A stretch of 18,833 nucleotides of DNA, taken from an uncultured Elusimicrobium sp. GTDB taxonomy: Bacteria > Elusimicrobiota > Elusimicrobia > Elusimicrobiales > Elusimicrobiaceae. The notes below the pieces were generated by a model. The model saw nothing but the letters and a program-made list of their open reading frames with translations. It was not told the origin of the DNA and made no database searches. Position 1 is the stretch's first letter, and the number at the start of each line of letters is the position of its first letter. The stretch spans positions 1 through 18,833 of the forward strand of contig CAMGSK010000006.1 in assembly GCA_946061795.1 (NCBI GenBank). The letters are read 5' to 3'. Position numbers and translations under genes: made by a program. This document shows, piece by piece, positions 1,992 to 18,833 of the stretch.

Positions 1992-2022
1992 TTCCTCTCA
2001 CGCGAAAGCAGATTGAAAAAAA

Positions 2023-2042
2023 GGCGGAGGGTGGCCCCCGCC
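2023..2042 (+). terminator. Putative terminator after lpxI
   Basis: A stem of GGCGG, a bulged A, then GGG pairs with CCCCCGCC across a three-base loop, TGG. It is flanked by seven A on the left and TCTTT on the right. The weak U-tract makes it a modest terminator for lpxI. Read on the minus strand it is followed by seven T, so it could also act as a backstop for the convergent operon. Confidence 0.65.
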
Positions 2043-2259
2043 TCTTTAAAACCGAAACACATCACTTTCCTCAAAAACTGTTTTTCAGTAATAATAAATA
2101 CCGTACGTCGGCAATTTTACAGAAGGCTCTTTTTTCCCCGTTTCCCCTCTGCATATTTCTTTATACACGTCGAATGCAAAGCCGTCTAATTTGCGTTTGA
2201 TGAGGTTTTTTCTTCCAGGGAAAGTTTTTGATAATTTTTGTTCATAAGCAAAATTTATC

Positions 2260-2294
2260 AAAAAAAAAAAACGCGTCAAGACTTTACGCGTCTT
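2260..2294 (-). terminator. Strong Rho-independent terminator of the ndk operon
   Basis: On the minus strand the palindromic hexamer ACGCGT occurs twice, 9 bases apart (2291-2286 and 2276-2271). The stem extends by one G-T and two A-T pairs (AAGACGCGT against ACGCGTTTT). A run of 11 T follows (2270-2260). It starts about 40 bases past the stop of the GH3-like gene and so closes the ndk / hydrolase-fold / GH3-like unit. Confidence 0.8.
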
Positions 2295-2336
2295 CGTCAA
2301 CAACGGCCCAACAGACCGAAAAACGAAACTTGATTT

Positions 2337-3275: not shown

Positions 3276-3297
3276 CGGGTCTCCATGTAAAACGAAT

Positions 3298-4140: not shown

Positions 4141-4583
4141 GCCAACACTTCTTCGGGCTTAAACCACAGCGCGATTTCGCGCGCCGCTTCTTCCGGCGTG
4201 CCGGAGGCGTGGACGGCGTTTTGCATCACGCCGTTTTTCACACAGCCGAACTGACCGCGCAGCGTCCAAGGCTCCGCTTTGTCCGGGTTGGTGGCGCCCA
4301 AGGCGGCGCGCACGCGGGAAACGGCGTTTTCCCCGCGCAGGACAAAGGCGTAAATGCGGTGGTCGGGCAAATGGTTGTAATCGCCCATCATAAAACGCAC
4401 CACTTCGTCCACAAACGGGGTGCCGGCCAAATTGGCGTAATGTTTGCGGAGCAATTCTTCCGTGGCGGACACGGCCTTCGCGCCCGCAATTTCCAGCCCC
4501 AAGGCTTCAAAGCGGGAGAGGATAATGCCCGTCAGCCTTTTTTCAATGGCGTCGGGCTTGATTAAAATAAGCGTTTGTTCCAT
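4137..4583 (-). CDS. ndk: Nucleoside diphosphate kinase
   Basis: Ndk passes the gamma-phosphate of ATP to other nucleoside diphosphates through a phospho-histidine, keeping NTP and dNTP pools balanced in the cytoplasm. The 148 residues are close to the normal length. The ATP-binding Lys lies in LILIKPDAIEK (5-15), ATNP is at 97-100, and RGQFGCVKNGVMQNAVHAS (109-127) carries the phosphorylated His125. The usual Asp after HxS is Gly here (HASGTPEEA), a change outside the catalytic His. It is the first gene of the minus-strand block, and its stop overlaps the next start by 4 bases. No Shine-Dalgarno sequence precedes the ATG, and a TATAAT ends only 6 bases upstream, which suggests a leaderless mRNA. 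Confidence 0.95.
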   Translation of the reverse strand: MEQTLILIKPDAIEKRLTGIILSRFEALGLEIAGAKAVSATEELLRKHYANLAGTPFVDEVVRFMMGDYNHLPDHRIYAFVLRGENAVSRVRAALGATNPDKAEPWTLRGQFGCVKNGVMQNAVHASGTPEEAAREIALWFKPEEVLA

Positions 4584-4589
4584 ATGCTT

Positions 4590-4595
4590 ATTATA
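4590..4595 (-). promoter_or_regulatory. -10 box of ndk, predicting a leaderless transcript
   Basis: A perfect TATAAT reads on the minus strand from 4595 to 4590, 6 bases ahead of the ndk ATG (4583-4581). Standard spacing puts the transcription start at or next to the A of that ATG. No convincing -35 hexamer is seen; the region about 17 bases upstream is GGGTTTT-like. Confidence 0.6.
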
Positions 4596-4642
4596 CTTAA
4601 AAAACCGCCCGAAAACCCGGCTAAACGAGCGCGCCCCGGCTA

Positions 4643-4651
4643 TGATATAAT
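4643..4651 (+). promoter_or_regulatory. Extended -10 promoter of the Gfo/Idh-lpxB-rel unit
   Basis: TGATATAAT is a perfect extended -10 (TGn followed by TATAAT at 4646-4651). Transcription would start near 4658, giving a leader of about 18 bases that holds the GAGG ribosome binding site at 4667-4670. No good -35 is visible, as is common for extended -10 promoters. It is divergent from the ndk promoter about 50 bases away. Confidence 0.7.
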
Positions 4652-4675
4652 AAAATAAACAACAGCGAGGTGCAC

Positions 4676-5737
4676 ATGCCAGAAGAAACCAATTTGAAAT
4701 TCGGCGTCATCGGCGCCGGAAAAATAGGAACTTTTCATACCCGCACGCTGGCAAAAATGCCGGGCGTCACCCTGGTGGGCGTGTGCGACCCGGATTTGAT
4801 GCGCGCGCAAAAACTGGCGTGGCAATACAACGCCACCCCGTATTCCAAAATGGAAGATTTGGTCGGGCAGGTGGACGCCGTCATCGTGGCCGCGCCGACG
4901 CATTTGCATCATCAAATCGGTATGTATTGTTTGGAACACGGCGTGCATACGCTGGTGGAAAAACCCATCGCTTCCACGCTGGAACAGGCAAAAGATCTTA
5001 TACGCGCCGCCAAACAGCGCGAATGCATCCTGCAAGTGGGACACGTAGAACGTTTTAATCCCGCCGTAGTGGAAGCCGTAAAATACATTGATCATCCCAA
5101 ATTCATCACCATGAACCGGCTGGGGCCTTACGACGCCCGCATGTCCAACATCGGCGTGGTGCTGGATTTGATGATTCATGACATAGACCTGCTGCTGACG
5201 CTGGTCCCTTCGGAAGTCAAAAGCATTGACGCCACGGGGATGAGCGTGTTTTCCGCCCACGAAGACATCGCCAACGTGCGCATCCGCTTTGCCGACGGCA
5301 CGCTGGCCGACCTGACCGCCAGCCGCGCCAGCTTTGAACGGGCGCGTTTCATGCATTTGTTTCAGCAGGACGCTTATATTTCCGTGGACTTTATGAACGC
5401 CCGGGTCAAAATGTACAAAAAAGAAAAACCGGTCATTTCTTCCATGCAGGATTTGACGGTCATTTATCCCCCCGTCCAGAAGCAGTTGCCCATTACCGCG
5501 GAAATTTTACATTTTATTGACTGTATCAAAACGCACAGAACCCCCGCACCCAGCGGAGAAAAAGGGAGCAAAGCGTTGGAACTGGCGCTGAAAATTACGG
5601 AACAAATCCGCCGCTTTGACATACCCAAAACCGAGCATGTGCATACGCCCAAACCTTTGCAAATGGTGCAGGACGTGGCCAAAGCCGCGCAAATGATGCT
5701 GGGCGAAACGCTGGGCCAATTCAAACAGGATAAATAA
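4676..5737 (+). CDS. Gfo/Idh/MocA-family sugar dehydrogenase, possible UDP-GlcNAc 3-dehydrogenase (GnnA-like)
   Basis: This 353-residue NAD(P)-dependent oxidoreductase has an N-terminal Rossmann fold with GVIGAGKIG (10-18), the loop VCDPD (36-40) and the family EKP motif (95-97). The substrate domain follows, with GHVERFNP (122-129) and DLMIHDID (164-171), whose His168 is the usual catalytic residue. Its place just ahead of lpxB suggests it oxidises a nucleotide sugar used in lipid A. In Acidithiobacillus ferrooxidans, gnnA and gnnB lie between lpxA and lpxB and make UDP-GlcNAc3N. A GnnA role is therefore plausible, but no GnnB aminotransferase is present here. The ATG at 4676 is preferred over a GTG at 4670 because GAGG sits 5 bases ahead of it. 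It is first in a four-gene unit, and lpxB follows after 1 base. Confidence 0.88.
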   Translation: MPEETNLKFGVIGAGKIGTFHTRTLAKMPGVTLVGVCDPDLMRAQKLAWQYNATPYSKMEDLVGQVDAVIVAAPTHLHHQIGMYCLEHGVHTLVEKPIASTLEQAKDLIRAAKQRECILQVGHVERFNPAVVEAVKYIDHPKFITMNRLGPYDARMSNIGVVLDLMIHDIDLLLTLVPSEVKSIDATGMSVFSAHEDIANVRIRFADGTLADLTASRASFERARFMHLFQQDAYISVDFMNARVKMYKKEKPVISSMQDLTVIYPPVQKQLPITAEILHFIDCIKTHRTPAPSGEKGSKALELALKITEQIRRFDIPKTEHVHTPKPLQMVQDVAKAAQMMLGETLGQFKQDK

Positions 5738-5738
5738 T

Positions 5739-6893
5739 ATGGCGACCATTACCCCTCTGCACAAAAACATTCTTATCGTGGCGGGAGACGTGTCGGGCGA
5801 TTTGCACGCGTCAGGCTTAATCCGGGAATTGAAAAAAGCGGACCCCGACGTACAAATAACCGCCGTCGGCGGCAAATTAATGCAAAAAGAAGCGGACCGC
5901 TTTTTGTTTGACTTGGCGGCGCAGGGAGCCAGCGGCTTTATTGAACCGCTGAAAAAAATGCCGCTGTGGATTTCTCTGACCAAACAAATCCGCGAATATA
6001 TGGAAACCCAAAATCCCGCCGCCGTCATTACGGTGGATTTTTACGGGTTCAACCGCCAGGTGCTGGCCATGGCGCAAAAACGCGGCATTCCCGCTTTTTA
6101 TTACGTGACGCCGCAAGTGTGGGCCAGCCGCCAATACCGCGCCAAACAATTGGCCCGGCTGACCAAAAAAATGTTTGTCATTTATCCCTTTGAGCCTTCT
6201 TTCCATAAAAAATTCGGCGGAAACGCCGTATTTTTGGGCAATCCGCTCTTAGACATCATGCCCGAGCCCGCCCCGCATACGTACGAAACGGACAATGTAA
6301 AAAATAAGGCTTGGAAACTGGGGATTTTGCCCGGCAGCCGCATGGGGGAAATTTCCCGTCTGACGCCCGTCTTCTACCAAACTTTTAAACAAGTTCTCAA
6401 AGAATTTCCCAACACGCAGGCGTATTTGTTTGCCTTGCCGGACGCGGACGAGAACAAAATTCTGTCCCTTCTGGGAGAGCCTCCCCACCCGAACTTTCAT
6501 ATCGTCAAAGATAAAAACTACGAATTGCGCGGACAAATGGACTTTTTGCTCGCCTGTTCCGGCACCGCCACGCTGGAAAACGCCCTGCTCGGCGTACCCA
6601 TGGTGGTGGCGTACAAATTGTTTTGGCCCACTTACCAAATAGCGAAAGCCGTCATTAAGGTAAAATATATTTCGTTGGTCAATTTGCTCTCAAACAAGCC
6701 GTTGGTCAAAGAACTGATTCAGGCCGAGGCCAACCCGCGCCTGCTGGCCGCGCAAACCATGGCCATGTTCCAAAATCCGGCCAAGCTGGCCGCCCAGCGG
6801 GAAGAGCTGCTTAAACTGCGCGCCTCTCTGGGAGAAAAAGGAGTAGCCGCACGCGCCGCACGCGAAATTTTGGCCGACATAGTGAGAAAATAA
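5739..6893 (+). CDS. lpxB: Lipid-A-disaccharide synthase LpxB
   Basis: LpxB joins lipid X to UDP-2,3-diacylglucosamine to make the lipid A disaccharide, at the cytoplasmic face of the inner membrane. The 384 residues match the usual length for this GT19 glycosyltransferase. Motifs in order are AGDVSGDLHASGL (15-27; the family usually has AGExSGD), VDFYGFN (99-105) with the essential Asp100, YYVTPQVWASRQYR (121-134), LGNPLLD (166-172; usually GHPLxD), ILPGSRMGEI (196-205) and ACSGTATLENALLGVPMVV (272-290). The E-to-D and H-to-N changes are conservative and probably lineage variation. AGGA at 5727-5730 gives a good ribosome site, and the dehydrogenase stop is 1 base upstream. Confidence 0.97.
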   Translation: MATITPLHKNILIVAGDVSGDLHASGLIRELKKADPDVQITAVGGKLMQKEADRFLFDLAAQGASGFIEPLKKMPLWISLTKQIREYMETQNPAAVITVDFYGFNRQVLAMAQKRGIPAFYYVTPQVWASRQYRAKQLARLTKKMFVIYPFEPSFHKKFGGNAVFLGNPLLDIMPEPAPHTYETDNVKNKAWKLGILPGSRMGEISRLTPVFYQTFKQVLKEFPNTQAYLFALPDADENKILSLLGEPPHPNFHIVKDKNYELRGQMDFLLACSGTATLENALLGVPMVVAYKLFWPTYQIAKAVIKVKYISLVNLLSNKPLVKELIQAEANPRLLAAQTMAMFQNPAKLAAQREELLKLRASLGEKGVAARAAREILADIVRK

Positions 6894-6896
6894 TTT

Positions 6897-8342
6897 ATGC
6901 CCATGGAATTGAAAGATTTGGTCGCCCAATTTAAAGAATATAATCCCAACGCGGACACGTCCATGCTGGAAAAAGCCTACCGCTTTGCCCAAAACGCCCA
7001 CAAAGACCAAAAGCGTGAAACGGGCGAGCCGTACTTTAACCATTGCACCGCCGTGGCCAAAATTTTGCTGGATTTTAATTTGGACGAAGAAACCATCTGC
7101 GCAGGCCTGCTGCACGATACGGTAGAAGACACCGGCGTGACGACGGAAGAGCTGAAAAAAGAATTCAACAAAGACGTGGCCCACATGGTGCAGGGCGTGA
7201 CGAAGATCAGCGATTTGAAGTTCTCTTCCACGGACGAAGAAACCGTGGAAAACTGGCGCAAAATGCTCATCGCCGTGGCCGAAGACGTACGCGTCATTCT
7301 CATCAAACTGGCCGACCGCACCCACAACATGCGCACCATGGACGTCATGCCTCCCGAAAAACAAAAATTCAAGGCATACGAAACCATTACGCTTTACGCG
7401 CCGCTGGCCCAGCGTTTGGGCATGTTCACCATCAAAACCGAACTGGAAGATTTGGCCTTTAAATATCTCCACCCGGAAGAATTTAAAGACTTGGTGCAAC
7501 AGGTAGAAAAACGCACCGCCGACCGCCAAGCCGCGCTGAACGAATTTAAACGTCTGCTGGAGCCCGCGCTGAAAGAAGAAAACATGGACTACCGCCTGCT
7601 CTCCCGCGCAAAAAACTACTATTCCATTTATCGCAAAATGCAAAAACAAAACCTGTCTTTTGCGGAAATTCAGGATTCGCTGGGCGTGCGCATCATCACT
7701 AAAAGCGTGTCCGACTGCTACAAAGCCCTGGGTGTGGTGCACTCCCGTTTCAAACCTTTGGCCGGCACGTTTACCGATTATATCGCCACCCCCAAAGCCA
7801 ACATGTACCAAAGCATTCACACCACCGTGCTGGTGCCCACGGGAGACATTGTGGAAATACAAATCCGCACGGAAGAAATGCACCGCACCTGCGAATACGG
7901 CATCGCGGCGCACTGGCGCTACAAACTGGGCGGGAAAAAGGATAAAAATTTTGACGAAAAAATCAACTGGATACGCCAGTGGATTGAATGGCAGCGGGAT
8001 TTAACCGCCCCGCGGGAATTTTTGGAAGGATTCCAAACCGACATCAACCTGCAGCAAGTATTCGTTTTTACTCCGCAGGCGGACGTAAAACCTTTGCCGG
8101 ACGGAGCCACCCCCATAGACTTCGCCTTCGCCATTCACACCGACATCGGCGAGCGATATATGGGTGCCAAAGTCAACAACCGCATGGTGCGTATGGATTA
8201 TGTATTTAAAACCGGCGACGTGTGCGAAATCATCACCAAGAAAACCGCCCAGCCCAAACGCGACTGGCTGGAATTTGCCAAAACGGCCAACGCACGCAGC
8301 CGAATCAAACGTTATCTGCGCAGCCACGGGGAGGACCTCTGA
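6897..8342 (+). CDS. rel: Bifunctional (p)ppGpp synthetase/hydrolase (RelA/SpoT family), C-terminally short
   Basis: This enzyme makes and destroys (p)ppGpp, the stringent response alarmone. The N-terminal HD hydrolase domain looks intact: His49, HD at 73-74 in LLHDTVEDT, and Asp140/Asn144 in LADRTHNMR. The synthetase domain has SRAKNYYSIYRKM (236-248), Asp260 in IQDSLGVRII, DYIATPKANMYQSIHTT (294-310) and VEIQIRTEEMH (319-329). A TGS domain follows (about 386-448). The protein ends at residue 481, whereas long RSH proteins reach about 700-750, so the zinc-finger and ACT/RRM regulatory domains are absent. The reading frame closes cleanly, and the next gene starts in the stop (TGATG). Starts at 6897 and 6903 are both possible; neither has a strong ribosome site. 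It follows lpxB by 3 bases, linking stringent control to the lipid A unit. Confidence 0.94.
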   Translation: MPMELKDLVAQFKEYNPNADTSMLEKAYRFAQNAHKDQKRETGEPYFNHCTAVAKILLDFNLDEETICAGLLHDTVEDTGVTTEELKKEFNKDVAHMVQGVTKISDLKFSSTDEETVENWRKMLIAVAEDVRVILIKLADRTHNMRTMDVMPPEKQKFKAYETITLYAPLAQRLGMFTIKTELEDLAFKYLHPEEFKDLVQQVEKRTADRQAALNEFKRLLEPALKEENMDYRLLSRAKNYYSIYRKMQKQNLSFAEIQDSLGVRIITKSVSDCYKALGVVHSRFKPLAGTFTDYIATPKANMYQSIHTTVLVPTGDIVEIQIRTEEMHRTCEYGIAAHWRYKLGGKKDKNFDEKINWIRQWIEWQRDLTAPREFLEGFQTDINLQQVFVFTPQADVKPLPDGATPIDFAFAIHTDIGERYMGAKVNNRMVRMDYVFKTGDVCEIITKKTAQPKRDWLEFAKTANARSRIKRYLRSHGEDL

Positions 8343-8641
8343 TGCCCGCCTGCCCGCGCTGCCGTTTTCACGCCGACGATTCCGACTGCTACTGCCGTCA
8401 CTGCGGCAAACCGCTGCGGCCGCAAATGGGCTTTTGGTACGACCACGGAGGCATTTTGCTACTGACGTGCCTGGTGGGGCCCTTTTCCTTGATTACGGTC
8501 TGGCTGTCGCGCAAAATCAGTCTGCGGGCCAAATGGCTCTGGACGGCGGGAATTCTGTTGTTTTCCGTTTACTGCGCGCTGGCGGTTTACCACAGCGTAC
8601 GGCTGCTGTGGCAGGCCGTTCAAATGAGTTTCCCCGCCTAA
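8342..8641 (+). CDS. Zinc-ribbon protein with two membrane segments, function unknown
   Basis: The 99-residue protein starts with a zinc ribbon built from CPRC (4-7) and CRHC (18-21). Two hydrophobic segments follow, at about 34-55 and 67-88, so it is probably an inner-membrane protein with a small cytoplasmic zinc-binding head. I do not recognise a specific family; zinc-ribbon plus transmembrane proteins of this size are common and mostly uncharacterised. The ATG overlaps the upstream stop by one base (TGATG), and a purine-rich GGGGAGG lies about 8 bases ahead, so it is translated with the (p)ppGpp enzyme. It is not the missing RSH C-terminus: that zinc finger domain lacks membrane helices. 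Confidence 0.82.
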   Translation: MPACPRCRFHADDSDCYCRHCGKPLRPQMGFWYDHGGILLLTCLVGPFSLITVWLSRKISLRAKWLWTAGILLFSVYCALAVYHSVRLLWQAVQMSFPA

Positions 8642-8678
8642 AATCCATTTTTTTCCTCCCTCACTCCCTCTTTTTTTG

Positions 8679-8684
8679 TAGAAT
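8679..8684 (+). promoter_or_regulatory. Candidate -10 box for the peptide transporter
   Basis: TAGAAT differs from TATAAT at one position and would place the transcript start near 8691, leaving a leader of about 30 bases that includes the GGAG ribosome site at 8711-8714. No clear -35 is seen. The alternative TGATACAAA at 8702-8710 would start the transcript beyond the ribosome site and fits less well. Confidence 0.35.
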
Positions 8685-8702
8685 AAGGGGTACCCTTTTT
8701 TT
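8685..8702 (+). terminator. Weak terminator or attenuator before the peptide transporter
   Basis: AAGGG pairs with CCCTT across a GTA loop, and seven T follow (8696-8702). The stem is only five pairs, so termination would be partial. It lies 43 bases after the zinc-ribbon gene and 18 bases before the transporter start, so it could end the upstream unit or attenuate the transporter. Confidence 0.4.
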
Positions 8703-8720
8703 GATACAAAGGAGAAATGA

Positions 8721-10106
8721 ATGACTGACGAAGAAGTGAAGCACAACGTCACCCACAAAGGCCAGCCGAAAGCTTTGTACATGCTTTTCATGGTGGAAAT
8801 GTGGGAGCGTTTCAACTATTACGGTATGCGCGCGCTGTTGGCGCTGTTTATGATCAGCACCGTCATCGGCTTCAGCAAAGCCACTTCCAGCAAAATTTAC
8901 GGAATGTTCACCGCGCTCGTTTATCTGACCCCGGTTTTGGGCGGCTATTTAGCCGACAAATTTATCGGCAAACGCCATTCCATCACCATCGGTGCGGCTT
9001 TGATGGCCTTGGGCCAGTTTACTTTGGCCGCTTACGAAATCATCAACCCCGTATTGGCTTTGGGCACCGGCTTGACTTTGATTATCATCGGCAACGGATT
9101 CTTTAAACCCAATATCTCCAGCATCGTGGGCGAATTGTACGAACCCAACGATCCGCGCATGGACGGCGGATTCACCATCTTCTACATGGGCATTAACCTC
9201 GGTGCATTCTTTGCGCCGTTCGTCTGCGGTTTCTTGGGCGAGCCTATGGACCCGATGAACGCGCTGGAAGCCTATAAATGGAAATACGGTTTTATGGCCG
9301 CCGGTACGGGTATGATCATTGGCTTGATTTGGTATTTGGTTTCCCAAAACAAATACCTGGGTCACATTGGTCTCAAACCCGTCACCAAGAGCGGTGATAT
9401 TGACGACGCTACCGAAAAAGCCCGTGCTGAACAGGCTAACAAACCGCTGACGCAGGAAGAATGGGACAAAATCAAAGCGATTTTCACGTTTGTGTTCTTC
9501 GCCGTGTTCTTCTTTGCATTCTTTGAGCAGGCCGGTACGTCTTTGAACTTCTTCGCCAAAGAAGCCACCAACCTGCACCCGGTGCTGCCGTTCTTTGGGC
9601 AAATTACCCTCAAGGCCTCTTACTTTCAGGCGGTCAACCCCATTTTTGTGGTACTGTTTGCGCCTATTTTCGCCAAAATGTGGATTAAGCTGGGCAGCAA
9701 AAACCCCTCCATCCCCACTAAATTCGGCTGGGGCTTGTTCCTGCAGGGCTTGGGTTTTGCCGCCATCGTTATCGGCGCCAGCATTTATGCTTCCAACGGC
9801 CCCGTCAGCGCGATTTGGCTGGTGCTGACCTACATGTTCTGCACGATGGGCGAGCTGTGCCTCTCCCCCGTCGGCCTGTCCATGGTTTCCAAATTGGCTC
9901 CGGCCAAATTCATGTCCTTGTTCATGGGCGTGTGGCTGACGGCCAGCTTCTTTGGCAACCTGCTCGCCGGCTGGCTGGCCAGCTATTATGAATCCTGGAG
10001 CCTGACGACGCTGTTCTCCGTTCCGGCCGGGCTGTCCATCCTCTTCGGCATTATCATGTGGTGCATGACCGCCAAGGTCAAACACTGGATGCACGACGTC
10101 AAATAG
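8721..10106 (+). CDS. POT-family proton-coupled di-/tripeptide transporter
   Basis: This 461-residue inner-membrane protein imports di- and tripeptides with protons (major facilitator fold, POT/PTR2 family). It has the family ExxER motif in VEMWERFNYYG (25-35), FFKPN (127-131) with the conserved Lys, the PTR2 signature FTIFYMGINLGA (151-162), FFEQAG (267-272) and GELCLSPVGLSM (377-388). About 12-14 hydrophobic segments are visible, with a hydrophilic loop at about 214-250 in the middle. Only short tails flank the helices. The ATG at 8721 has GGAG 6 bases ahead; an ATG at 8717 opens only three codons. The gene stands alone, with a weak hairpin before it and a strong terminator after it. Confidence 0.95.
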   Translation: MTDEEVKHNVTHKGQPKALYMLFMVEMWERFNYYGMRALLALFMISTVIGFSKATSSKIYGMFTALVYLTPVLGGYLADKFIGKRHSITIGAALMALGQFTLAAYEIINPVLALGTGLTLIIIGNGFFKPNISSIVGELYEPNDPRMDGGFTIFYMGINLGAFFAPFVCGFLGEPMDPMNALEAYKWKYGFMAAGTGMIIGLIWYLVSQNKYLGHIGLKPVTKSGDIDDATEKARAEQANKPLTQEEWDKIKAIFTFVFFAVFFFAFFEQAGTSLNFFAKEATNLHPVLPFFGQITLKASYFQAVNPIFVVLFAPIFAKMWIKLGSKNPSIPTKFGWGLFLQGLGFAAIVIGASIYASNGPVSAIWLVLTYMFCTMGELCLSPVGLSMVSKLAPAKFMSLFMGVWLTASFFGNLLAGWLASYYESWSLTTLFSVPAGLSILFGIIMWCMTAKVKHWMHDVK

Positions 10107-10120
10107 TCGGTTTGTTTTCA

Positions 10121-10152
10121 AAATCCCGCCGCGAAACCGGCGGGATTTTTTT
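10121..10152 (+). terminator. Strong Rho-independent terminator of the peptide transporter
   Basis: AAATCCCGCCG (10121-10131) pairs perfectly with CGGCGGGATTT (10138-10148) around a six-base loop CGAAAC. A T-tract ends at 10152. It lies 15 bases past the transporter stop. Confidence 0.93.
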
Positions 10153-10173
10153 ATCCCTTTTTCCGCCGCAAAG

Positions 10174-10212
10174 GCCGCCGGATTTTTCCCCTTTTAAAAT
10201 GCGGCTTTTTTT
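10174..10212 (+). terminator. Possible second, weak terminator hairpin upstream of tpiA
   Basis: GCCGC (10174-10178) can pair with GCGGC (10201-10205), followed by seven T. The loop is 22 bases, so the hairpin is weak and may be chance. It could back up the stronger terminator just upstream. Confidence 0.3.
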
Positions 10213-10220
10213 GATACTAT
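10212..10220 (+). promoter_or_regulatory. Candidate extended -10 promoter of the tpiA unit
   Basis: TGATACTAT matches an extended -10 (TGn then TACTAT, four of six to consensus). The transcript would start near 10227, right at the foot of the hairpin at 10229-10250. No clear -35 precedes it. Confidence 0.5.
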
Positions 10221-10228
10221 CTATATAG

Positions 10229-10250
10229 GCCGTTTTGGAATAAAAACGGC
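10229..10250 (+). promoter_or_regulatory. 5' leader stem-loop of tpiA mRNA
   Basis: GCCGTTTT pairs perfectly with AAAACGGC over a six-base loop, GGAATA. No T-run follows, so it is not a terminator. If the start near 10227 is right, this stem sits at the very 5' end of the mRNA, a position known to protect transcripts from decay. The tpiA ribosome site lies about 24 bases beyond it. Confidence 0.55.
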
Positions 10251-10284
10251 AAACCTATTTATTTTGCATCAACGAGGAAACAAA

Positions 10285-11040
10285 ATGACCAAAAGAACTC
10301 CTATCATCGCCGGAAACTGGAAAATGCACAACACGCTGGCCGAGTCGGCCGCGCTTATTGAAGCCTTAAAAACCGCCGGAAATAAAAACAACGCCGAAAT
10401 CATCGTCGCTCCCTCTTTCACTTCTTTAGCCAAAGTGGCCGAACTGGCCAAAGGCTCTCAGATTCAAGTCTCCAGCCAGGATGTACACTGGGAAGACAAA
10501 GGTGCCTTCACCAGCGCTGTTTCTCCCGTGCAGGCCAAAGACGCCGGCGCCACCCACACCATTTTGGGCCACAGCGAACGCCGCAGCGTGTTCGGAGACA
10601 CGGACGAAATTTTGAACAAGAAAGTCGCCGCCGCTCTGCGCCACGGACTGACCATTATCTTCTGCGTGGGAGAAACGCTCGCGCAGCGCGAAGCTGACGA
10701 AACCATCGCCGTCATTGATTCCCAATTGGAAAACGGCCTGAAAGGATTTACCGCCGAACAACTCAAAGGACTCATCATCGCTTATGAACCGGTGTGGGCC
10801 ATCGGCACCGGCAAAACGGCCACGCCGCAACAGGCGCAGGAAGTGCACGCCGCCATCCGCAAATTTTTAGCCGGAAAATATGGCGCGGACTTTGCCGAAG
10901 CCACCCGCATTCTCTACGGCGGAAGCGTAAAAGACAGCAACGTGGACGAAATCATGGCGCAGCCGGACGTGGACGGTGCGTTGGTGGGCGGACAGGCGTT
11001 GATCGCGGAAAAATTCGCCCGCATCATTAATTTCAATTAA
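10285..11040 (+). CDS. tpiA: Triosephosphate isomerase
   Basis: TpiA interconverts dihydroxyacetone phosphate and glyceraldehyde 3-phosphate in glycolysis and gluconeogenesis. The 251 residues are the standard TIM-barrel length. All key residues are present: Asn11 and Lys13 in AGNWKMH, His96 in GHSERR (95-100), Glu168 in AYEPVWAIGTGK (166-177, containing the catalytic loop), the phosphate-binding YGGSV (211-215) and GALVGG (231-236). The ATG at 10285 is chosen because it gives the canonical N-terminus and has GAGGA 7 bases upstream; a TTG at 10264 would add a non-family extension. It begins the unit that runs to dprA; deoC follows after 12 bases. Confidence 0.97.
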   Translation: MTKRTPIIAGNWKMHNTLAESAALIEALKTAGNKNNAEIIVAPSFTSLAKVAELAKGSQIQVSSQDVHWEDKGAFTSAVSPVQAKDAGATHTILGHSERRSVFGDTDEILNKKVAAALRHGLTIIFCVGETLAQREADETIAVIDSQLENGLKGFTAEQLKGLIIAYEPVWAIGTGKTATPQQAQEVHAAIRKFLAGKYGADFAEATRILYGGSVKDSNVDEIMAQPDVDGALVGGQALIAEKFARIINFN

Positions 11041-11052
11041 AGGAGCTTTTCC

Positions 11053-11697
11053 ATGAACTTGGCCAAATACATAGATCACACCCTTTTAAAACCCCAAGCC
11101 GCCCGGGAAGATATTGAAAAACTCTGCCGGGAAGCCCGGCAATACGGATTTTTCAGCGTATGCGTCAATCCGTATTGGGTGCCTTTCTGCAAAGACCAGC
11201 TCAAAGGCAGCGACGTAAAGGTGTGCACCGTCATCGGCTTCCCGTTGGGAGCCAACACGACGGAAACTAAAGTATTTGAAGCCAAAGACGCTTTGAAAAA
11301 CGGCGCCGACGAGTTGGACATGGTCATCAACTTGGGCGCCGTAAAAAGCGCGGATTGGGACACCGTACTCCAAGACATAAAAGCCGTACGCGCGGCCGGG
11401 GAAAATTTCACGTTGAAAGTCATCATTGAAACCTCCGTGCTGACGCAAGAAGAAAAAGTCAAAGCCTGCGAGCTCTGCGCCCAAGCGGGAGCCGACTTTG
11501 TCAAAACCTCCACCGGATTTACCGGCGGCGGCGCCACGGCGGAAGACGTGCGCCTTATGCGCGCCCATGTTCCGGCAAACATGCAGGTCAAAGCTTCCGG
11601 CGGCGTACGCACGCGGGAAGATTTTGACGCCATGGTGGCGGCCGGAGCCACGCGCATCGGCGCCAGCGCAGGCGTAAAAATTATAGAGGAAAAATGA
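11053..11697 (+). CDS. deoC: Deoxyribose-phosphate aldolase
   Basis: DeoC splits 2-deoxyribose 5-phosphate into glyceraldehyde 3-phosphate and acetaldehyde, so DNA-derived sugar enters glycolysis; the neighbouring tpiA handles one of its products. At 214 residues it is of normal short-type length. The barrel carries YIDHTLLKP (6-14), Asp89 in [10 protein letters not shown] (87-96), the Schiff-base Lys151 in FVKTSTGF (149-156) and Lys180 in VKASGGVRT (179-187). AGGAG at 11041-11045 sits 7 bases before the ATG. Its stop overlaps the start of the DnaA-like gene (ATGA). Confidence 0.97.
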
Positions 11698-14600
11698 TTA
11701 CCCAGTGGGACATCATCTCCAATTTAAGCCCTAACGACAATTCCATCCGCCACACATTGCTGATAGACGGAACGGAACATGACGCGCGCTTAATCGCCAA
11801 AAAACTGCAAGGTTATGTACAAGCCCCGCAGCCGGCGTTGGCGCCGTATGTGTACCGCTTCGGTCTGCCGGCGGATTTGGATGAAAACACGCTGGAAAAA
11901 ATCCGCGTGGCCGTCCGGGAAGGCATAGAACAGGCCAAAAAAGTAAACGAATTTATCCCGGGCGGTTCTTTGGGCAATCCGCTCTTTACGGAAAATGCGG
12001 CAAAAGAAGACAAAGATTTTCCCACTTTTATTACATTGGATCCGTCGGAAAGTTTTTTCAGCGCCGGCCGGACCATTCCTTCCAAACCCGAACCGCCTCA
12101 GGTGGAAGAGTTTGAACAAAAACAAATTCATATAGAGCCGGAAGAAGAAATTCCGGCCCACGCCCAGACGTTGGAAGAACTTGACCAGCCCGGCTACCGT
12201 TCCGACCCCCAACCGCCGCAGCCTCCCTTCCAATGGGAAGAAAACCCTTTATCGGAGCCGGAAGAAGAACCCTCCGCCGAAGAAGCGTTGACCTCCGTGG
12301 AAGCGCAAGACGAAGCATGGCCGGACGATCCCCCCGATTCCTCTTCCGGCGAAACGGAAAACCTCCACATACAGGCACAGTCTGTTCAGCCGGACGAATT
12401 GCCTTCGGAAATGACGCCTTCCGCACCCGTGCCGGAAACGAACGAGGAAGATTCGTCTCCTCTGACGGAAAGAGATATGCTGAACAAAGACATGGAAGGC
12501 ACATTGTTAGACCCGGCGTTGGAAGACATTTTTTCCGCAGAAACCAAATATGACATGTTTTTAGACGTGGACAAACTGGAAGGCAAAAATCCTCTTCCCG
12601 CCAAACGGGACTTGGCGCCGGACGCCGTAGCCGCCGGCCCCGAAGCCGTCTGCTCCGCCTCCTCCGAAGAAGACAACGCGGGCGGATTTAACGTTTTTGA
12701 CCAAAAAATTAAAGACCAAACCTGCTTTGTGGACTTGGACGATATTCACAGCGTGACGGAAAGAATTACCCAAAAAGATTTGGAATTTATACGCCACGCC
12801 CAAGTGCCGGAAGCGGACAAACAAGCCAGCTTGTCTGCGGACGCGGACAAACAGCCGGATTTGGACGGATTGGCCGTAGAAAAAATCCCTGCGGAACCGG
12901 CCGTCGTAGAGGAGCGGCAAACGCCGGAATCTGAACAAAATCAAGGACTTTTTATTTCGCAGCCGGAGGATTCCGCTCCGCAGGAAGAAGTCATGGATCC
13001 TTTTGAGCAAATGCTGGCGGCGGGACGTCAAAAGCAGGAAGACGCCGGGCAAACCGATTTACAAACGCAACCGGAGGCGCAAGACGCTCCCTCCCGGGAT
13101 AATACCGCAGAGGAAGAACCGACGCAACAACCAACCACGCCGCCGGCCACTCCGGCGCCGGAGCCCGACGCTCCCGCCACATTGAACACGGAACAGGCCC
13201 TCAGGGTGACGCCTGCTCCGCAAGCACCCATTACGGAGAATATTATGGAAGAAAATACCGGGGACAGAAAAACTTTCTTACATCTCAAACGTAAAATTCA
13301 AACTCCCGCGCCTCAGGCTCCCATCGCGCCGCAAGCGCCGCAAAAACCGGCCCAGCCCGATGTGCCGCAAAAGGCTGAGGCGCCCTCCGCACCCATTCCG
13401 TCCGCGCAGCCCCTTCCGGAAAAAGAAACTTCCGCGGGGACGACCATTTTGCGCAGAAGAATGCCCCCCGCTCCGGGCAACACCGTGCTGGAAAAAACGC
13501 GTACGATAGACCACTCCATTGAACTGCCTTTGTCCGCTTTGCAAAAGCACAACTGGCCGTTGGAAGTGCCGCTGGTTCCCACTTATACGCTGGAAAACAT
13601 GACCATATCCGTCAACCGTTTTGCGCACGCCACGGCTATTTCCGTTATTGACAACCCGGGCAAGCTTTACAATCCGCTCGTACTGCACGGAGCCAGCGGT
13701 ACGGGAAAAACCCACTTCCTGCACGCTATCGGCTACGCATTAAGCAAAAAATACGGACAGGAAAATATTTTCATCACCAACGGGGTCCGGCTGTCGCGCG
13801 GAGTACAACGCTACGTGATTGAAAACAATATGGATAAATTCCGCCAGTTCGCCGACTCGGCCAAAGCGCTGCTGATTGACGATATTCACTTGATTGCCGT
13901 CAACGAACAAAACCGCGCCCATTTGTCCAAATTGCTCAACGATTTCAAACAGCAAAACAAACAAATTGTCATTACTTCCAAATATCCGCCGGAAAGTCTG
14001 GCCAAATTGGAAGAATTGCTCAAATTCCGTCTGGATTCGGGCTGGATCTCCGAATTAAAAGACGCCACGGAACCCACCCGCACGCGGATTATCCAGAAAA
14101 TTCTGATGTCCAACGGCATCAACGTCACGGACGACGATACGCACCGATTTTTCGGCCACGCCAACATGTCTTTGGGCACGGTGGCGCGCAGCATACGCCG
14201 GGTGCGCGTATTGGAAAAATTGGTGTTCCCCAATGCCCCGCAGGCGCAGCGCTCCGAACTGGCTATCTTTGAAAAACTCTTGGCCACCAACGGAGAAGAC
14301 CAAAGCAGCCTGCTGACGCAGAAATCTCCGGAGGAGATTACCTCCGCACCCGTCGTCGGGAACGGAGAGTGGGGGCGCATCGGCTTCTTCTATCCGCAGA
14401 ACCACTCCGACATGATGAACTGGCTGGTGTTTGCGCTGCAGCAGCGCGCCAAAGAGTTGGGTATTCCCGGCGGGCCGGAGCTGGCCGTCCGTTCTTCTTA
14501 CTCAACCGACAACATCATTTCCTCCGCGTTTAAAATCGCCAATTTGTGCGACAACAAAAAACTCAAAGGAGCCGTCATCCTCGGCCCGGAAGTAATGGTT

Positions 14601-14744
14601 TGCGATCCTTCGGTCAGAGAAAACTTTTATGACATTCTGACCCATATGCTGGAAATTATGCTCATCCGCTGCGGTATTCTCAATTACGAAGACTACAGCT
14701 CCCCCAGCACGTATGTGAAAGTATTATCGGAGTTATTAAGATGA
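11694..14744 (+). CDS. DnaA-like AAA+ ATPase with long disordered N-terminal region and unknown C-terminal domain
   Basis: This 1016-residue protein has four parts. Residues 1 to about 100 look folded but match nothing I know. Residues about 120-600 are acidic and rich in Pro, Glu, Asp and Gln, so probably disordered; two basic patches, [10 protein letters not shown] (526-535) and TTILRRRM (583-590), and APQAP repeats break this region. Residues about 630-840 are a DnaA-type AAA+ domain: NRFAHATA, Walker A GASGTGKT (666-673), an initiator-type helix region, Walker B LLIDD (726-730), KQIVITS and a box VII Arg at 779. The sensor-2 Arg appears to be Gly828. DnaA's DNA-binding domain IV is absent; about 125 unrecognised residues (892-1016) take its place. 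It is thus not the replication initiator. It overlaps deoC and the next lipoprotein gene by 4 bases each. Confidence 0.85.
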
Positions 14745-15193
14745 AAAAGCTCGTTTTCCTGTTTGCCGCCGCGCTGTGCCTGTGCGCGTGCTCGGCCCAT
14801 ATGAAAAGCGCGGTAAAGGACGGACAAATCGCTCCTAAATTCGCCGATACGCTCACGGACGGAGAATATTTGTGGGTGCGCGGATTCGGCGCGGCCAATC
14901 CCAAGCACCAAAGCGACTCCCAGCGGCGTATCCTGTCCCGCGAAGCGGCCATCGCCCACGCATACCAACGCGCGACGGAAGTGATTTACGGCGCCAATTT
15001 GGAAAGCAACGTGCAAATCGTGGACGCGGTGTCGGAGGGATCTACGGTGCACACCACCGCTTCCGGCCTGCTTAACGACATGGAACTGGTTTCCACCGAA
15101 TATCTGGAAGACGGCGGATGCAGCGTAATTATGCGTATTTCCCGCGCCAAATTGGGCGCCGCCGGAAGTACCTTGCAAGGAGCCGCCCAATGA
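14741..15193 (+). CDS. LPP20-like lipoprotein, function unknown
   Basis: The 150-residue protein has a lipoprotein signal peptide ending in LCAC, so lipidation at Cys17 is expected and the mature protein is probably on the outer or inner membrane facing the periplasm. The remainder resembles the LPP20 / FlgT N-terminal type of small domain: SREAAIAHAYQRATEVIYG (66-84), an extended segment, then a strand pair ending GGCSVIMRIS (124-133). The specific function is unknown. The start overlaps the DnaA-like stop (ATGA), and the end overlaps the next lipoprotein gene in the same way, so all three are probably made together. The second lipoprotein seems to contain a related domain. Confidence 0.8.
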   Translation: MKKLVFLFAAALCLCACSAHMKSAVKDGQIAPKFADTLTDGEYLWVRGFGAANPKHQSDSQRRILSREAAIAHAYQRATEVIYGANLESNVQIVDAVSEGSTVHTTASGLLNDMELVSTEYLEDGGCSVIMRISRAKLGAAGSTLQGAAQ

Positions 15194-16296
15194 AAAAAAG
15201 TCTTTTGCTGGTTTTGGCTTGTCTGCTTGCGCTGGGAGCGTGCCGCGCCTTGCATATCGGGCCCAAAGGGGAAGGCGAATATGTAGTGGCCGAATCTTTG
15301 GTGCCTTACGATGAAAACAATATCTCCGCCATGAAAAAAGAAGGGGAACTGGCCGCCCGCAGAGCGGCGGTGGAAAAAGTGGCGGGCATTTTTATTTCCT
15401 CCACCTCCACCGTGGAACAGGCGCAGTTGGTGGAAGACAAAATCACCTCAAAATCCGCCGGATTTATTCGCCGCGGATATGTGCAGAAGGCCTACCGCAA
15501 AGGAGACCAGTGGTACACGCGCGTACGCGCCATGGTGCTGGTCAAAGACATCGGCGAAATTATTAAACAGTCCGACGCGGACGCTTTCGCCAAAAAAACC
15601 GTTATTTTGGTCACTTCGCGCGAAACCGTCGGAGAAGAAGTTTCTCTGAAACAAGACTGCAAACAGGCCGTGTACCGCGCGCTGAAAGGCCAGCCGTATT
15701 CTTTGATTAACGGCGACAATCTGAGCCAAAACAATCTGGAAAATCCCACCCCGGTTATAGACAAAGCCCGGCAAGACGGAGCCCGTTTTATTATTCTGGC
15801 CGACGTACACGCCGCGCCGCTGCAAGCGCTGCCCGGGATTTCCTCTCCGTTTAAGACCTACCGCGCGCGCGCCAATTTAAAAGCGGCTTCCACCAACAAT
15901 TACCAAATTGTGGCCGAAGCGGCGGACCAGGCCAGCGGTTTGGACCCGATGGAAAACATCGCCGCGCAAAAAGCCATTTCCGCCTCCTGCGAAGCGGCGG
16001 CCAAACAAATGGTGGAGGGCTTGAACGCCGCCATCAATTCCGCCGCGAAATTCAACGTGGTGGTGCGCAACGTCAACTCTATAGAGCGGTTGAAACAAAT
16101 TCAGGACATTTTCAAAGATATGCGCGAAATTGAGGACTACAATCTGACCAAATACACCAATTCCGACGCTTATTTTGAAATCTCGGCCCATATTTCTTCC
16201 GCCGAGGAATTGACGGCCAAAGTCATCCGCCGTTATAACGTCAATTTTACGGTAATGGCCGTTTCGCCGCAGCAAATCGTGTTAAACTTCATCTAA
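15190..16296 (+). CDS. Lipoprotein with FlgT/LPP20-like N-terminal domain, function unknown
   Basis: The 368-residue protein has a lipobox LGAC with the lipidated residue at Cys18. Residues about 27-130 resemble the LPP20 / FlgT N-terminal domain (AARRAAVEKVAGIF, then a variable stretch and WYTRVRAMVLVKDIG). Residues about 135-250 form an alpha/beta segment starting KTVILVTSRE and containing ARFIILADVHA, like the middle domain of FlgT-type envelope proteins. Residues about 250-368 are a helical and beta C-terminal part I do not recognise. No flagellar genes are in view, so a flagellar role is not supported. AGGAG lies 7 bases before the ATG at 15190, which overlaps the upstream stop. comM follows after 3 bases. 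Confidence 0.8.
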   Translation: MKKSLLLVLACLLALGACRALHIGPKGEGEYVVAESLVPYDENNISAMKKEGELAARRAAVEKVAGIFISSTSTVEQAQLVEDKITSKSAGFIRRGYVQKAYRKGDQWYTRVRAMVLVKDIGEIIKQSDADAFAKKTVILVTSRETVGEEVSLKQDCKQAVYRALKGQPYSLINGDNLSQNNLENPTPVIDKARQDGARFIILADVHAAPLQALPGISSPFKTYRARANLKAASTNNYQIVAEAADQASGLDPMENIAAQKAISASCEAAAKQMVEGLNAAINSAAKFNVVVRNVNSIERLKQIQDIFKDMREIEDYNLTKYTNSDAYFEISAHISSAEELTAKVIRRYNVNFTVMAVSPQQIVLNFI

Positions 16297-16299
16297 ATT

Positions 16300-17838
16300 A
16301 TGCTTGCCAACGTCCGGACCTGCGCCTTAAAAGGCATTGAAGGTTTTGAAGTGATGACGGAGGTGGACATCTCAGCCGGGATGCCCACCTTTTCCGTCGT
16401 GGGGCTGCCGGACGCGGAAGTAAAAGAAAGCAAAGACCGCGTGGTGGCCGCCGTGCGCAACAGCGGCTTTGATTTTCCGCTCAAACGCATTACCGTCAAT
16501 TTAAGCCCTGCGGAACTGCGCAAAAGCGGCACACAGTTTGACCTGCCCATTGCGGCGGGCATATTGGCCGCGTCGGGCGCGCTGTCGGAAGCGGCCGTCA
16601 AAAAAATGCAAGATCTTGTCCTTTTGGGGGAATTGGCGCTGGACGGCACGCTGCGCCCCTGCGCGGGGGTGCTCCCCATGCTGATTTCCGTCAAAAATTC
16701 CGGCAAGACGGCGGTCATTCCTCCAGGGAATTTATCGGAAGGACGCGCGTGCTCGGTTCCTTTTCTCACGCCGCGCACCTTACGCGATCTGGCGGACTGG
16801 CTGGAAGGAAAGGCCAAAGACGAAGCCGTGCAAATCGCCTATATCCCCGAAGAAGAAGAGTCCGCTCCCTGCGAACTGGATTTTTCCGATGTAAAAGGCC
16901 AAGCCGTAGCCAAACGCGCGCTGGAGATCGCCGCCGCGGGAGGGCACAACGTATTGCTTATCGGGCTGCCCGGCACGGGCAAAAGCATGCTGGCCAAACG
17001 TTTCCCCGCCATCTTGCCCCCGCTTTCGGAAGAAGAAGCGTTGGAAATTACCAAAATTTATTCCGTTTGCAGTCTCCTCGGCAAATCCAAACGTCTGACG
17101 CGGCGGCCTTTTCGGGACCCGCACCACACCATTTCCGACGTGGCGCTCATCGGAGGAGGCAGCACGCCCAAACCCGGAGAAGTGTCTTTGGCCCATAACG
17201 GCGTGTTGTTTTTGGATGAATTTGCGGAATTTTCCCGCACGACGCTGGAAGTTTTACGCCAGCCGCTGGAAAACGGTCAAGTGACCATTTCGCGCGCGAA
17301 AGAGACCGTCACGTTCCCGGCCAAATTTACCCTGATTGCGGCCATGAATCCCTGCCCGTGCGGCAATTTGGGCAGTCCGTACAAGAGCTGCACCTGCTCT
17401 CCGGTGCAAATCAACCGCTACCAGTCCCGCATTTCCGGACCGCTTTTGGACCGCATTGATTTGACGGTAAACCTCAATCCCGTCCAATACGGCGACTGGA
17501 ACAAACCCAGCGAAGGGGACTCCTCCGCCCAAATCCGCGCGCGCGTGATGGCGGCCCGCCAAATACAACAAAAGCGTTTTAAAGACACGGGCACCACGGC
17601 CAACGCGTTCATGACGCAAAAGCAAATCAAAGAATTTTGTCCTCTCCCGCCGGGAGCCGACGCCGTGCTGGAAGCCGCCATGCGCAAGTTCGGTCTCAGC
17701 GCGCGCAGTTTGGACAAAGTGCTTAAAACCGCGCGCACCATTGCGGACTTAGAAGGGAAAGCGCAAATTGAAAATGCGCATCTGATTGAAGTGCTGCAAT
17801 ACCGCCCGCTGGACCGCAAGGGGGTGCCCGACTTATGA
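16300..17838 (+). CDS. comM: ComM / YifB family AAA+ branch-migration helicase
   Basis: ComM is a hexameric AAA+ helicase that drives branch migration of D-loops and helps integrate incoming DNA during natural transformation; the family was once called Mg-chelatase-like. The 512 residues match the usual length. The N-terminal Lon-like domain includes VVGLPDAEVKESKDRV and NLSPAELRKSGTQFDLPIA. The AAA+ core has Walker A GLPGTGKS (222-229), the family segment FRDPHHTISDVALIGGG, Walker B FLDEF with Asp306-Glu307, and the cysteine cluster NPCPCG...CTC. The C-terminal Mg_chelatase_C domain includes GLSARSLDKVLKTARTIADL. It has little ribosome site of its own and starts 3 bases after the lipoprotein stop; it overlaps dprA by 4 bases (ATGA). 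Confidence 0.96.
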   Translation: MLANVRTCALKGIEGFEVMTEVDISAGMPTFSVVGLPDAEVKESKDRVVAAVRNSGFDFPLKRITVNLSPAELRKSGTQFDLPIAAGILAASGALSEAAVKKMQDLVLLGELALDGTLRPCAGVLPMLISVKNSGKTAVIPPGNLSEGRACSVPFLTPRTLRDLADWLEGKAKDEAVQIAYIPEEEESAPCELDFSDVKGQAVAKRALEIAAAGGHNVLLIGLPGTGKSMLAKRFPAILPPLSEEEALEITKIYSVCSLLGKSKRLTRRPFRDPHHTISDVALIGGGSTPKPGEVSLAHNGVLFLDEFAEFSRTTLEVLRQPLENGQVTISRAKETVTFPAKFTLIAAMNPCPCGNLGSPYKSCTCSPVQINRYQSRISGPLLDRIDLTVNLNPVQYGDWNKPSEGDSSAQIRARVMAARQIQQKRFKDTGTTANAFMTQKQIKEFCPLPPGADAVLEAAMRKFGLSARSLDKVLKTARTIADLEGKAQIENAHLIEVLQYRPLDRKGVPDL

Positions 17839-18833
17839 ACATTTCCGCGCAGGAACGGCTGGCGCGCATCCGCGTAAACGCGTTTTTATATCTCCGGGCG
17901 GACTGGCTGAGCCGGCTGATTGAAATTTTCGGCTCCGCCGAAGAAATTTTGAAACAAAACGCCGACACGCTCTCACGTGAAGCGCAGATGAATCCTTCCA
18001 CCGCCGCGCACTTCCTGCGCGACGCCTTTGCCGTGGATCCGGAAGAGGAGTTGGAAAAGACCGAAAAATACGGCGGACGCATTCTGGTGCCGGAGGATGA
18101 CGAATACCCCCAGAGCCTGCGCCAAATCAAAGAAGCTCCCGTCGCTTTGTACGTTCTGGGCGCCTTACCCCGAAATAAAGCCTGCATAGGCATGGTGGGC
18201 ACGCGCAAAATTACGCCGTATGGCCGGCGCGCGGCGGACAATTTGGCCACCGGTCTGAGCGAAGCGGGTGCGGTGGTGGTCAGCGGACTGGCGCGGGGGA
18301 TAGACAGCGTCTGCCACGCCGCGGCGGTGCGCCTGGAAAAGCCGACCGTTGCCGTCATCGGCACGGGTATCGGCCGGTGCTATCCGCCCGAAAACCGGGA
18401 TTTGGCCAAAGCCATTTTGCGCCACGGCGGAGCCATTGTTTCCGAACTCCCTTTTAACAAACCTCCCAACGCTTTTCACTTTCCGAGACGCAACCGCATC
18501 ATCGCGGCTTTGTCCGAAACGGTGGTCGTGGTGGAAGGCGAAGCCAAATCCGGCGCATTGATTACGGCCAAGCTGGCGCTGGAAATGGGCAAAGACGTAT
18601 TGGCCGTCCCCGGCCCGATAGACAGCCCCCAAAGCGCGGGGCCCAACAACCTCATCGCGGACGGAGCAGGCGTTGTCAGGTGCGTAAAAGATATAATAGA
18701 CTATATACCGACCCCCGATTTGTTCGGGGTGCGGACTCCCGCAGCCCATTCCGCTCCGGCCGAAGAGAACGAGGGGCTGACGGATTTGCAAAAACGCGTA
18801 TTGGAATGCGTAGGGTCCGGCTCCGTATCGGCG
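17835..18833 (+). CDS. dprA: DNA-processing protein DprA, 3'-truncated by window edge
   Basis: DprA binds incoming single-stranded DNA and loads RecA onto it during transformation. The 333 codons seen run open to the window edge. An N-terminal helix-hairpin-helix-like region (about 1-80) is followed by the Rossmann-like DprA core: YPQSLRQIKEAPVALYVLG, GMVGTRKITPYG (119-130), SGLARGIDSVCHAAA, GTGIGRCYPPEN, FHFPRRNRIIAAL, EGEAKSGALITAKLALEMG and AVPGPIDSPQSAGPNNLI. The last residues, LTDLQKRVLECVGSGSVSA, look like the beginning of the C-terminal winged-helix domain found in many DprA proteins, so perhaps 30-50 residues are missing. The ATG lies in the comM stop, and the comM-dprA order is widespread. 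Confidence 0.95.
   Translation, partial: MNISAQERLARIRVNAFLYLRADWLSRLIEIFGSAEEILKQNADTLSREAQMNPSTAAHFLRDAFAVDPEEELEKTEKYGGRILVPEDDEYPQSLRQIKEAPVALYVLGALPRNKACIGMVGTRKITPYGRRAADNLATGLSEAGAVVVSGLARGIDSVCHAAAVRLEKPTVAVIGTGIGRCYPPENRDLAKAILRHGGAIVSELPFNKPPNAFHFPRRNRIIAALSETVVVVEGEAKSGALITAKLALEMGKDVLAVPGPIDSPQSAGPNNLIADGAGVVRCVKDIIDYIPTPDLFGVRTPAAHSAPAEENEGLTDLQKRVLECVGSGSVSA

Follow-up and report, generated by a model that had tools for sequence, protein, structure and literature searches.

Few bacterial proteins are as conserved as the replication initiator DnaA, and a genome that carries a second DnaA-like gene beside its own dnaA raises the question of what the second protein does. Such a gene lies in an 18,833-nucleotide stretch (hereafter the window) of an uncultured Elusimicrobium sp. 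(GTDB lineage Elusimicrobiota; Elusimicrobia; Elusimicrobiales; Elusimicrobiaceae; assembly GCA_946061795.1, contig CAMGSK010000006.1, positions 1–18,833, forward strand). Its product appears to belong to a DnaA-derived AAA+ family in which only the AAA+ core is of a known kind, with end modules that look new. The original prediction described the protein as a DnaA paralogue that had exchanged its DNA-binding domain (domain IV) for an unrecognized one and gained a long disordered arm. Paralogy, the loss of domain IV and the new domain all stand, but the N-terminus is not an arm alone and the box VII arginine, listed among the DnaA-like features, is not conserved in its lineage. No description of such a family was found in a literature search that covered part of the listings.

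Relationship to DnaA

The Pfam family Bac_DnaA covers residues 629–785 of the paralogue (E = 5.2 × 10−32) and the two best PDB alignments are both with DnaA, extending over residues 627–814/815 with one single-residue gap (best E = 1.5 × 10−27). These matches confirm the predicted closeness of the core to DnaA, and the motifs NRFAHA (641), GASGTGKTH (666), LLIDDIH (726), QIVITSK (757), KFRLDSG (777) and LGTVARS (827) are present at the residues given. Domain IV is likewise missing as foreseen: Bac_DnaA_C is absent from the paralogue at E = 0.01 in the Pfam scan, no helix–turn–helix was found in the C-terminus and the model of the C-terminal domain is an α/β fold. The paralogue status hinged on a separate true dnaA, which the genome of the window (G000; 1.30 Mb, 159 contigs, 86% complete) does carry; it is one further Bac_DnaA match (C40:6554–7033, minus strand) and owns the sole Bac_DnaA_C match in G000. 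The true DnaA (L001) forms a long branch in a tree of the core and has an unusual Walker A lead, YSTPGLGKTH.

Assignment of the paralogue to DnaA itself was rejected, with 147.2 bits against a cut-off of 343.9 for TIGR00362 and domain IV missing, as was assignment to Hda, with 57.8 bits against 194.8 for TIGR03420 (NCBIfam). The protein differs from DnaA in that no domain IV was found, the N-terminus is replaced, the genome has a separate dnaA and the sensors are lost in its lineage. With Hda/HdaA it shares a DnaA-related AAA+ core without domain IV; it has, however, lost the sensor-2 arginine and adds two conserved domains and an arm of ∼500 residues. It is also, as had been remarked, much larger than Hda or DnaC, for which the PDB chains listed have 191–231 and 229–239 residues.

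The C-terminal domain

The C-terminal domain is the best conserved part of the protein: median identity in the 120 listed close relatives is 83%, whereas the core reaches 71% and the N-terminal domain 68%. Pfam gave no match to the C-terminal 157 residues alone at E values up to 10, although most matches with E above 0.1 are removed by the HMMER filters; the unrecognized domain of the original prediction stands, at ∼130 residues. The C-terminal domains of close and distant relatives match one another with hhalign probabilities of 96.8–97.2 (41 of 121 close and 116 distant sequences).

The predicted model of this domain has the topology of a MID fold. The alignments used for structure modelling held 19 of the 120 listed close and 60 of the 120 listed distant relatives, another holding 66 of the 120 distant ones. 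The best Foldseek E values for the model are mainly with a designed cage and lumazine synthases, and the profile of the domain found only chance-level matches among PDB sequences (surfactant protein A, E = 0.05). Homology to Argonaute received no significant support, hhalign against 120 short Argonautes giving probabilities of 2.4 (distant set) and 0.1 (close set). The domain thus resembles the Argonaute/PIWI MID domain in predicted fold, without demonstrated sequence homology and without a PIWI domain.

Argonautes themselves occur in three of the 294 Elusimicrobiota genomes sampled (E ≤ 0.001), two of them above the cut-off. A genome of the window's genus (G116) encodes a short prokaryotic Argonaute that is closely preceded by another open reading frame (ORF) (L131:1033–3463), an arrangement seen in short-Argonaute defence pairs (the pair type was judged by eye), and there is a similar match in L132 (G250).

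The N-terminal domain and the acidic arm

Nearly 500 acidic, proline-rich residues had been predicted to precede the ATPase. An arm of this kind does exist from about residue 96 to residue 600, but residues 1 to ∼82 form a conserved domain. With alignments of six close rows (including the window protein) and 29 of 37 distant rows, hhalign probabilities for this N-terminal domain are 94.9 between close and distant relatives, 98.7 between close relatives and the window's class, and 99.3 between the class and distant relatives. In the model of the distant relative P0122 (mean predicted local distance difference test score 87.5) the domain is a confident strand–strand–helix–strand–helix; the list from the whole-model structure search is filled by AAA+ matches. 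The window protein accordingly contains all three parts of the family: N-terminal domain, DnaA-type AAA+ core and C-terminal domain.

The arm comprises 505 residues (21% Asp + Glu, 14% Pro, net charge −69) with a median identity of 36% over 118 relatives. Its length varies widely, the core match starting anywhere from about residue 114 (L046) to residue 1095 (L035) when the cut L041 is left out. Within it lie conserved islands, of which residues 255–296 are possibly a linear binding motif, judging from their conservation; a further island spans residues 104–125.

Catalytic residues

Residues were counted in the 120 close relatives listed out of 1154 and in 114 of the 120 distant relatives listed out of 1969 (those with a core longer than 150 residues), using the numbers and roles of the Escherichia coli DnaA residues (K178, D235, D269, R281, R285, R334 and V211). 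In the window protein, only Arg779 is retained out of the sensor-1 aspartate, the box VII arginine and the sensor-2 arginine, and Arg779 itself, correctly identified in the original prediction, is not a constant feature of the lineage (Table 1). The predicted replacement of the sensor-2 arginine is borne out, as no close relative has arginine there (gap in 56, Gly in 37, Ser in 27), with Gly828 at this position in an ungapped reading of the window protein. In distant relatives the sensor-2 arginine and the box VII arginine (R285) are present in 114 of 114, the Walker A lysine in 110 and R281 in 98. Since the sensors are kept in these distant members, the family began as a DnaA-type ATPase that possessed them. 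In the window's class, sensor 1 is gone throughout and sensor 2 almost so: the sensor-1 aspartate is found in none of six loci of a second family of the class (f2) and in none of seven loci of its other families, and arginine occupies the sensor-2 column in two of the six and none of the seven.

From these residues we infer that the window protein would bind ATP without turnover. An ATP-bound scaffold had been suggested from sensor 2 alone; the loss of the sensor-1 aspartate and the loose box VII position strengthen the suggestion, which nevertheless keeps its conditional character.

Extent and origin of the family

Of 294 genomes sampled from the phylum, 136 contain the C-terminal domain: 79 of 79 in the window's family (f1), 45 of 46 in f2, 11 from the remaining families of the class and one outside the class, the last figure being valid at the sensitivity of that search. 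In the f2 genome without a match (G278) just a part of the gene is visible. Outside the class, more diverged members appear as second DnaA-like genes, mostly of 450–675 residues. A search with a distant C-terminal domain returned 140 proteins, and among the 120 listed the named organisms are Elusimicrobiota groups, with one entry labelled merely 'bacterium'. In a scan of one genome per species (84,980 species), 27 loci were found, all in Elusimicrobia or Endomicrobia; because only two peptide patterns of the distant form were used, this is a limited test for other phyla. A close relative labelled Alphaproteobacteria bacterium (P0045; 80% identity, 2.4 kb contig) is probably a misassigned contig. 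The paralogue does not extend to the whole phylum: in family f15 a single core match (taken as DnaA itself) is all that most of the sampled genomes contain, and the paralogue seems to have been lost or never gained there.

In a tree of the core (77 rows, 67 of them different, with a root resting on one outgroup row), 62 family rows separate from 14 true Elusimicrobiota DnaA proteins and E. coli DnaA with branch support of 100/99, and the window paralogue, itself long-branched, groups with its class. On the evidence of this tree the family would have arisen once, from a duplication of dnaA. The protein is not a recent oddity but a member of a family that is widespread in the phylum and whose distant members have all three catalytic residues in 114 of 114 cases. 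Database entries for some relatives bear the name 'chromosomal replication initiator protein DnaA', so that their genomes appear to have two dnaA genes.

Gene context in relatives

The 27 distant loci, some of which are cut by contig ends, have pilT upstream in 20, a companion gene in 16, a GAF histidine kinase directly downstream in 16 and a receiver gene after the kinase in six; pilT and the kinase are both present in 11 and at least one of them in 25. The composite order is triosephosphate isomerase (TIM), deoC, pilT, companion, DnaA-like gene, GAF histidine kinase and receiver, all seven of which occur in no single locus. Pfam confirmed T2SSE, GAF/HisKA/HATPase and receiver domains in locus L096 and the kinase in two more loci, and gave no match for the companion of L096. 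Among seven loci of the class's families other than f1 and f2, the companion is present in six, pilT in four and the kinase in three or four, the fourth kinase call (L051) overlapping the DnaA-like ORF. Six f2 loci have the kinase in six cases and the companion in five; in seven f1 loci neither the companion nor the kinase stands beside the gene.

The C-terminal domain of the companion is homologous to that of the family, with hhalign probabilities of 98.5 and 97.8; a cleaned companion set (22 rows) gave 98.2 against distant and 92.4 against close C-terminal domains, unrelated controls reaching at most 1.6. Six companion proteins (L089, L091, L093, L094, L096 and L103) also open with the N-terminal domain (probabilities of 97.0–99.5 between the domain and these six, controls at most 0.4), and because both end modules are present they resemble a DnaA-like protein stripped of the ATPase. 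Two tandem companions stand between pilT and the DnaA-like gene in L093:5447–7575 and L094:5288–7560, the second of each pair starting with the N-terminal domain. The companion profile found nothing better than E = 0.36 among PDB sequences. An earlier companion set of 26 rows, three of them DnaA-like, had given a probability of 6.1 against short Argonautes; the cleaned 22-row set gave 2.2, at another place, and the weak hint of Argonaute kinship is gone with it.

Whole-genome searches with the companion profile gave no match at E = 0.1 in six of seven f1 genomes; strong matches were obtained in two f2 genomes, one f7 genome and G041, and in G012 only the DnaA-like gene itself was recovered. 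The sensor part of the kinase had no match in seven of eight f1 genomes and matched strongly in two f2 genomes and one f12 genome. Apart from G000, the f1 genomes in these searches (six for the companion, seven for the kinase) are 92–99% complete. G000 has two pilT-like genes elsewhere in the genome, one of which is adjoined by L120:5828–8694 (contig C31), with, by eye, a GYF-like start, an acidic linker and a probable membrane segment. The GYF-like protein (L120:6973–8694) was considered as the missing companion and rejected on account of this likely membrane stretch and the lack of a companion-profile match in G000.

Proposed function and alternatives

Since the gene stands near pilT, a sensor kinase or both in most distant relatives, a function other than the start of replication is probable, and the paralogue itself probably no longer initiates. 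DnaA is an ATP switch whose subunits stack through an arginine finger; distant members of the family retain this switch and have no domain IV. The computed domain architecture, the residue losses, the gene order and the extent of the family, as far as the searches reach, are consistent with a DnaA-derived AAA+ nucleotide switch that has become a scaffold passing a kinase-sensed signal to PilT retraction, and that is locked in the ATP form in the window's lineage; a probability of about 0.43 is given to this tentative proposal. The N-terminal part and domain IV of DnaA would have been replaced by the N-terminal domain of ∼80 residues and the C-terminal domain of ∼130 residues. The core would act as the nucleotide switch and assemble, through the end modules and together with the companion, into a scaffold that relays the signal sensed by the kinase to type IV pilus retraction; both the binding of the modules to one another and the link to PilT function are inferred from the above. 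In the window's lineage an ATP-locked scaffold is the most likely form because the partners were not convincingly found and the sensors are lost, whereas the ATP-binding motifs persist and the C-terminal domain is kept best of all; there the long acidic arm, with its conserved short motifs, might gather partners.

Several observations weigh against this proposal. No pilT stands beside the gene in the seven f1 or the six f2 loci, so the pilus link is one of descent at most in these families. Of the 27 distant loci, 11 are without a companion call and 11 without a kinase call, some of these loci being cut by contig ends, and seven called companions had themselves served to build the calling profile (13 hand-picked rows, seven of them from these 27 loci). 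The absences in G000 carry little weight because the genome is 86% complete, and among f1 genomes there is a faint companion match in G128 (E = 0.07) and a partial kinase match in G134 (E = 6 × 10−7, about one third of the query). A tree intended to find the pilT orthologue of G000 has long branches and assigns neither gene, two stops interrupt the copy in G193, which belongs to the window's genus, and neighbourhood can be passive, TIM and deoC being retained as well.

The nearest rival is a factor in DNA uptake (natural transformation), because pilT, comM and dprA adjoin different members of the family; the core would then handle incoming single-stranded DNA near PilT, ComM and DprA. In addition to the pilT counts, comM is called in seven of seven f1 loci and dprA adjoins it in the window. 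The column that presumably corresponds to the single-strand-contact position of DnaA holds a hydrophobic residue in distant members (Ile in 101 of 114); it is, however, Gln in 120 of 120 close relatives, and comM is called in none of the 27 distant loci. The order comM–dprA–topA is common among bacteria and may be passive here. In Elusimicrobiota, comM, dprA and further uptake genes are reported to be usually conserved (PMC8809381), which would suit this reading. On balance an uptake role is judged unlikely.

Less likely again is a replication regulator of the Hda kind, which would bind the true DnaA through AAA+–AAA+ contacts and tune initiation. A DnaA-type core, the box VII and sensor-2 arginines of distant members and the place of Hda structures as the next listed fold matches after DnaA favour it; the low Hda-model score, the unconserved box VII arginine in the window's lineage and the two further conserved modules, which call for another purpose, do not, and the genes recognised next to it in relatives are pilT, the companion and the kinase, in loci where no search was aimed at replication genes. 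A helicase loader of the DnaC/DnaI/IstB kind is very improbable: these related AAA+ folds appear among the listed matches, with weak model matches to IstB and DnaI, but the DnaA models score far higher, the chains are smaller and no replicative helicase is present among the window genes scanned. That the gene is a functionless, decaying relic, as the lost catalytic residues, the missing ancestral partners and the broken G193 copy might suggest, is scarcely credible given a C-terminal domain kept in every sampled f1 genome at 83% median identity and Walker A and B motifs invariant in the listed close relatives.

A wider reading would hold that a single recruitment, early in the history of Elusimicrobiota, brought the initiator fold into surface-appendage signalling or DNA uptake, that a DnaA-derived ATP switch and a companion built of the same end modules couple the GAF histidine kinase to PilT, and that Elusimicrobiaceae have an ATP-locked form without companion and kinase; this is doubtful, and with the further clause that the C-terminal domain is a true, highly diverged relative of the Argonaute MID domain it becomes improbable. 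To our knowledge, the known DnaA offshoots (Hda, DnaC/DnaI) stay in replication. A widespread offshoot that keeps its ATP-binding core, has lost its DNA-binding domain, has gained two modules and lies near pilT or a kinase in distant relatives would exemplify an initiator fold that has moved out of replication, and the intact operons of relatives offer a testable set of partners.

Features and neighbouring genes of the window

The gene order in the window is TIM, deoC, the paralogue, two putative lipoprotein genes, comM and dprA (Table 1), and the paralogue gene overlaps the deoC stop and the start of the first lipoprotein gene by ATGA at either end.

Table 1. Features of the paralogue and its neighbours (window coordinates; close and distant relatives as counted in the text).
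Feature	Position	Strand	Basis or remark
DnaA-derived paralogue	11694..14744	+	ORF translation of 1016 residues
Conserved N-terminal domain, residues 1–82	11694..11939	+	hhalign; fold in model of relative P0122
Acidic Pro-rich arm, residues 96–600	11979..13493	+	Composition; length varies widely among relatives
Conserved arm island, residues 255–296	12456..12581	+	Conservation in 17-row alignment A1
Second conserved arm island, residues 328–352	12675..12749	+	Conservation in 17-row alignment A1
DnaA AAA+ core (Pfam Bac_DnaA), residues 629–785	13578..14048	+	Pfam, genome scan, PDB alignments
Walker A GASGTGKTH, residues 666–674	13689..13715	+	Lys and Thr kept in 120/120 listed close relatives
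Walker B LLIDDIH, residues 726–732	13869..13889	+	Both Asp kept in 120/120 listed close relatives
Lys763 at DnaA sensor-1 Asp position	13980..13982	+	Lys in 120/120 close, Asp in 114/114 distant
Arg779, box VII (arginine finger) position	14028..14030	+	Arg 39, Lys 80, His 1 of 120 close; Arg in 114/114 distant
Gly828 at sensor-2 Arg position	14175..14177	+	Ungapped reading; MAFFT puts a gap there in the window protein
New C-terminal domain, residues 886–1016	14349..14741	+	β-α-β-α-β-α-β-α; MID-like predicted fold
Triosephosphate isomerase (TIM) gene	10264..11040	+	Neighbour on the upstream side; some loci of relatives have it too
deoC	11053..11697	+	Four-base overlap with paralogue start
Putative lipoprotein (judged by eye)	14741..15193	+	No Pfam family
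Second putative lipoprotein	15190..16296	+	Likely start inside ORF 15118–16296; relative called in 7/7 f1 loci
comM/yifB	16300..17838	+	
dprA	17835..18833	+	Cut by window end

Elsewhere in the window, positions 6897–8342 encode a short Rel/Spo homologue of 481 residues with HD, RelA_SpoT and TGS domains and no Pfam domain after TGS. In the f2 locus L040:10380–13048 the kinase and comM are separated by several lipoprotein-like genes in succession (one GNA1162-like, one CsgG-like and one that belongs to no family); the window has two such genes at this place.

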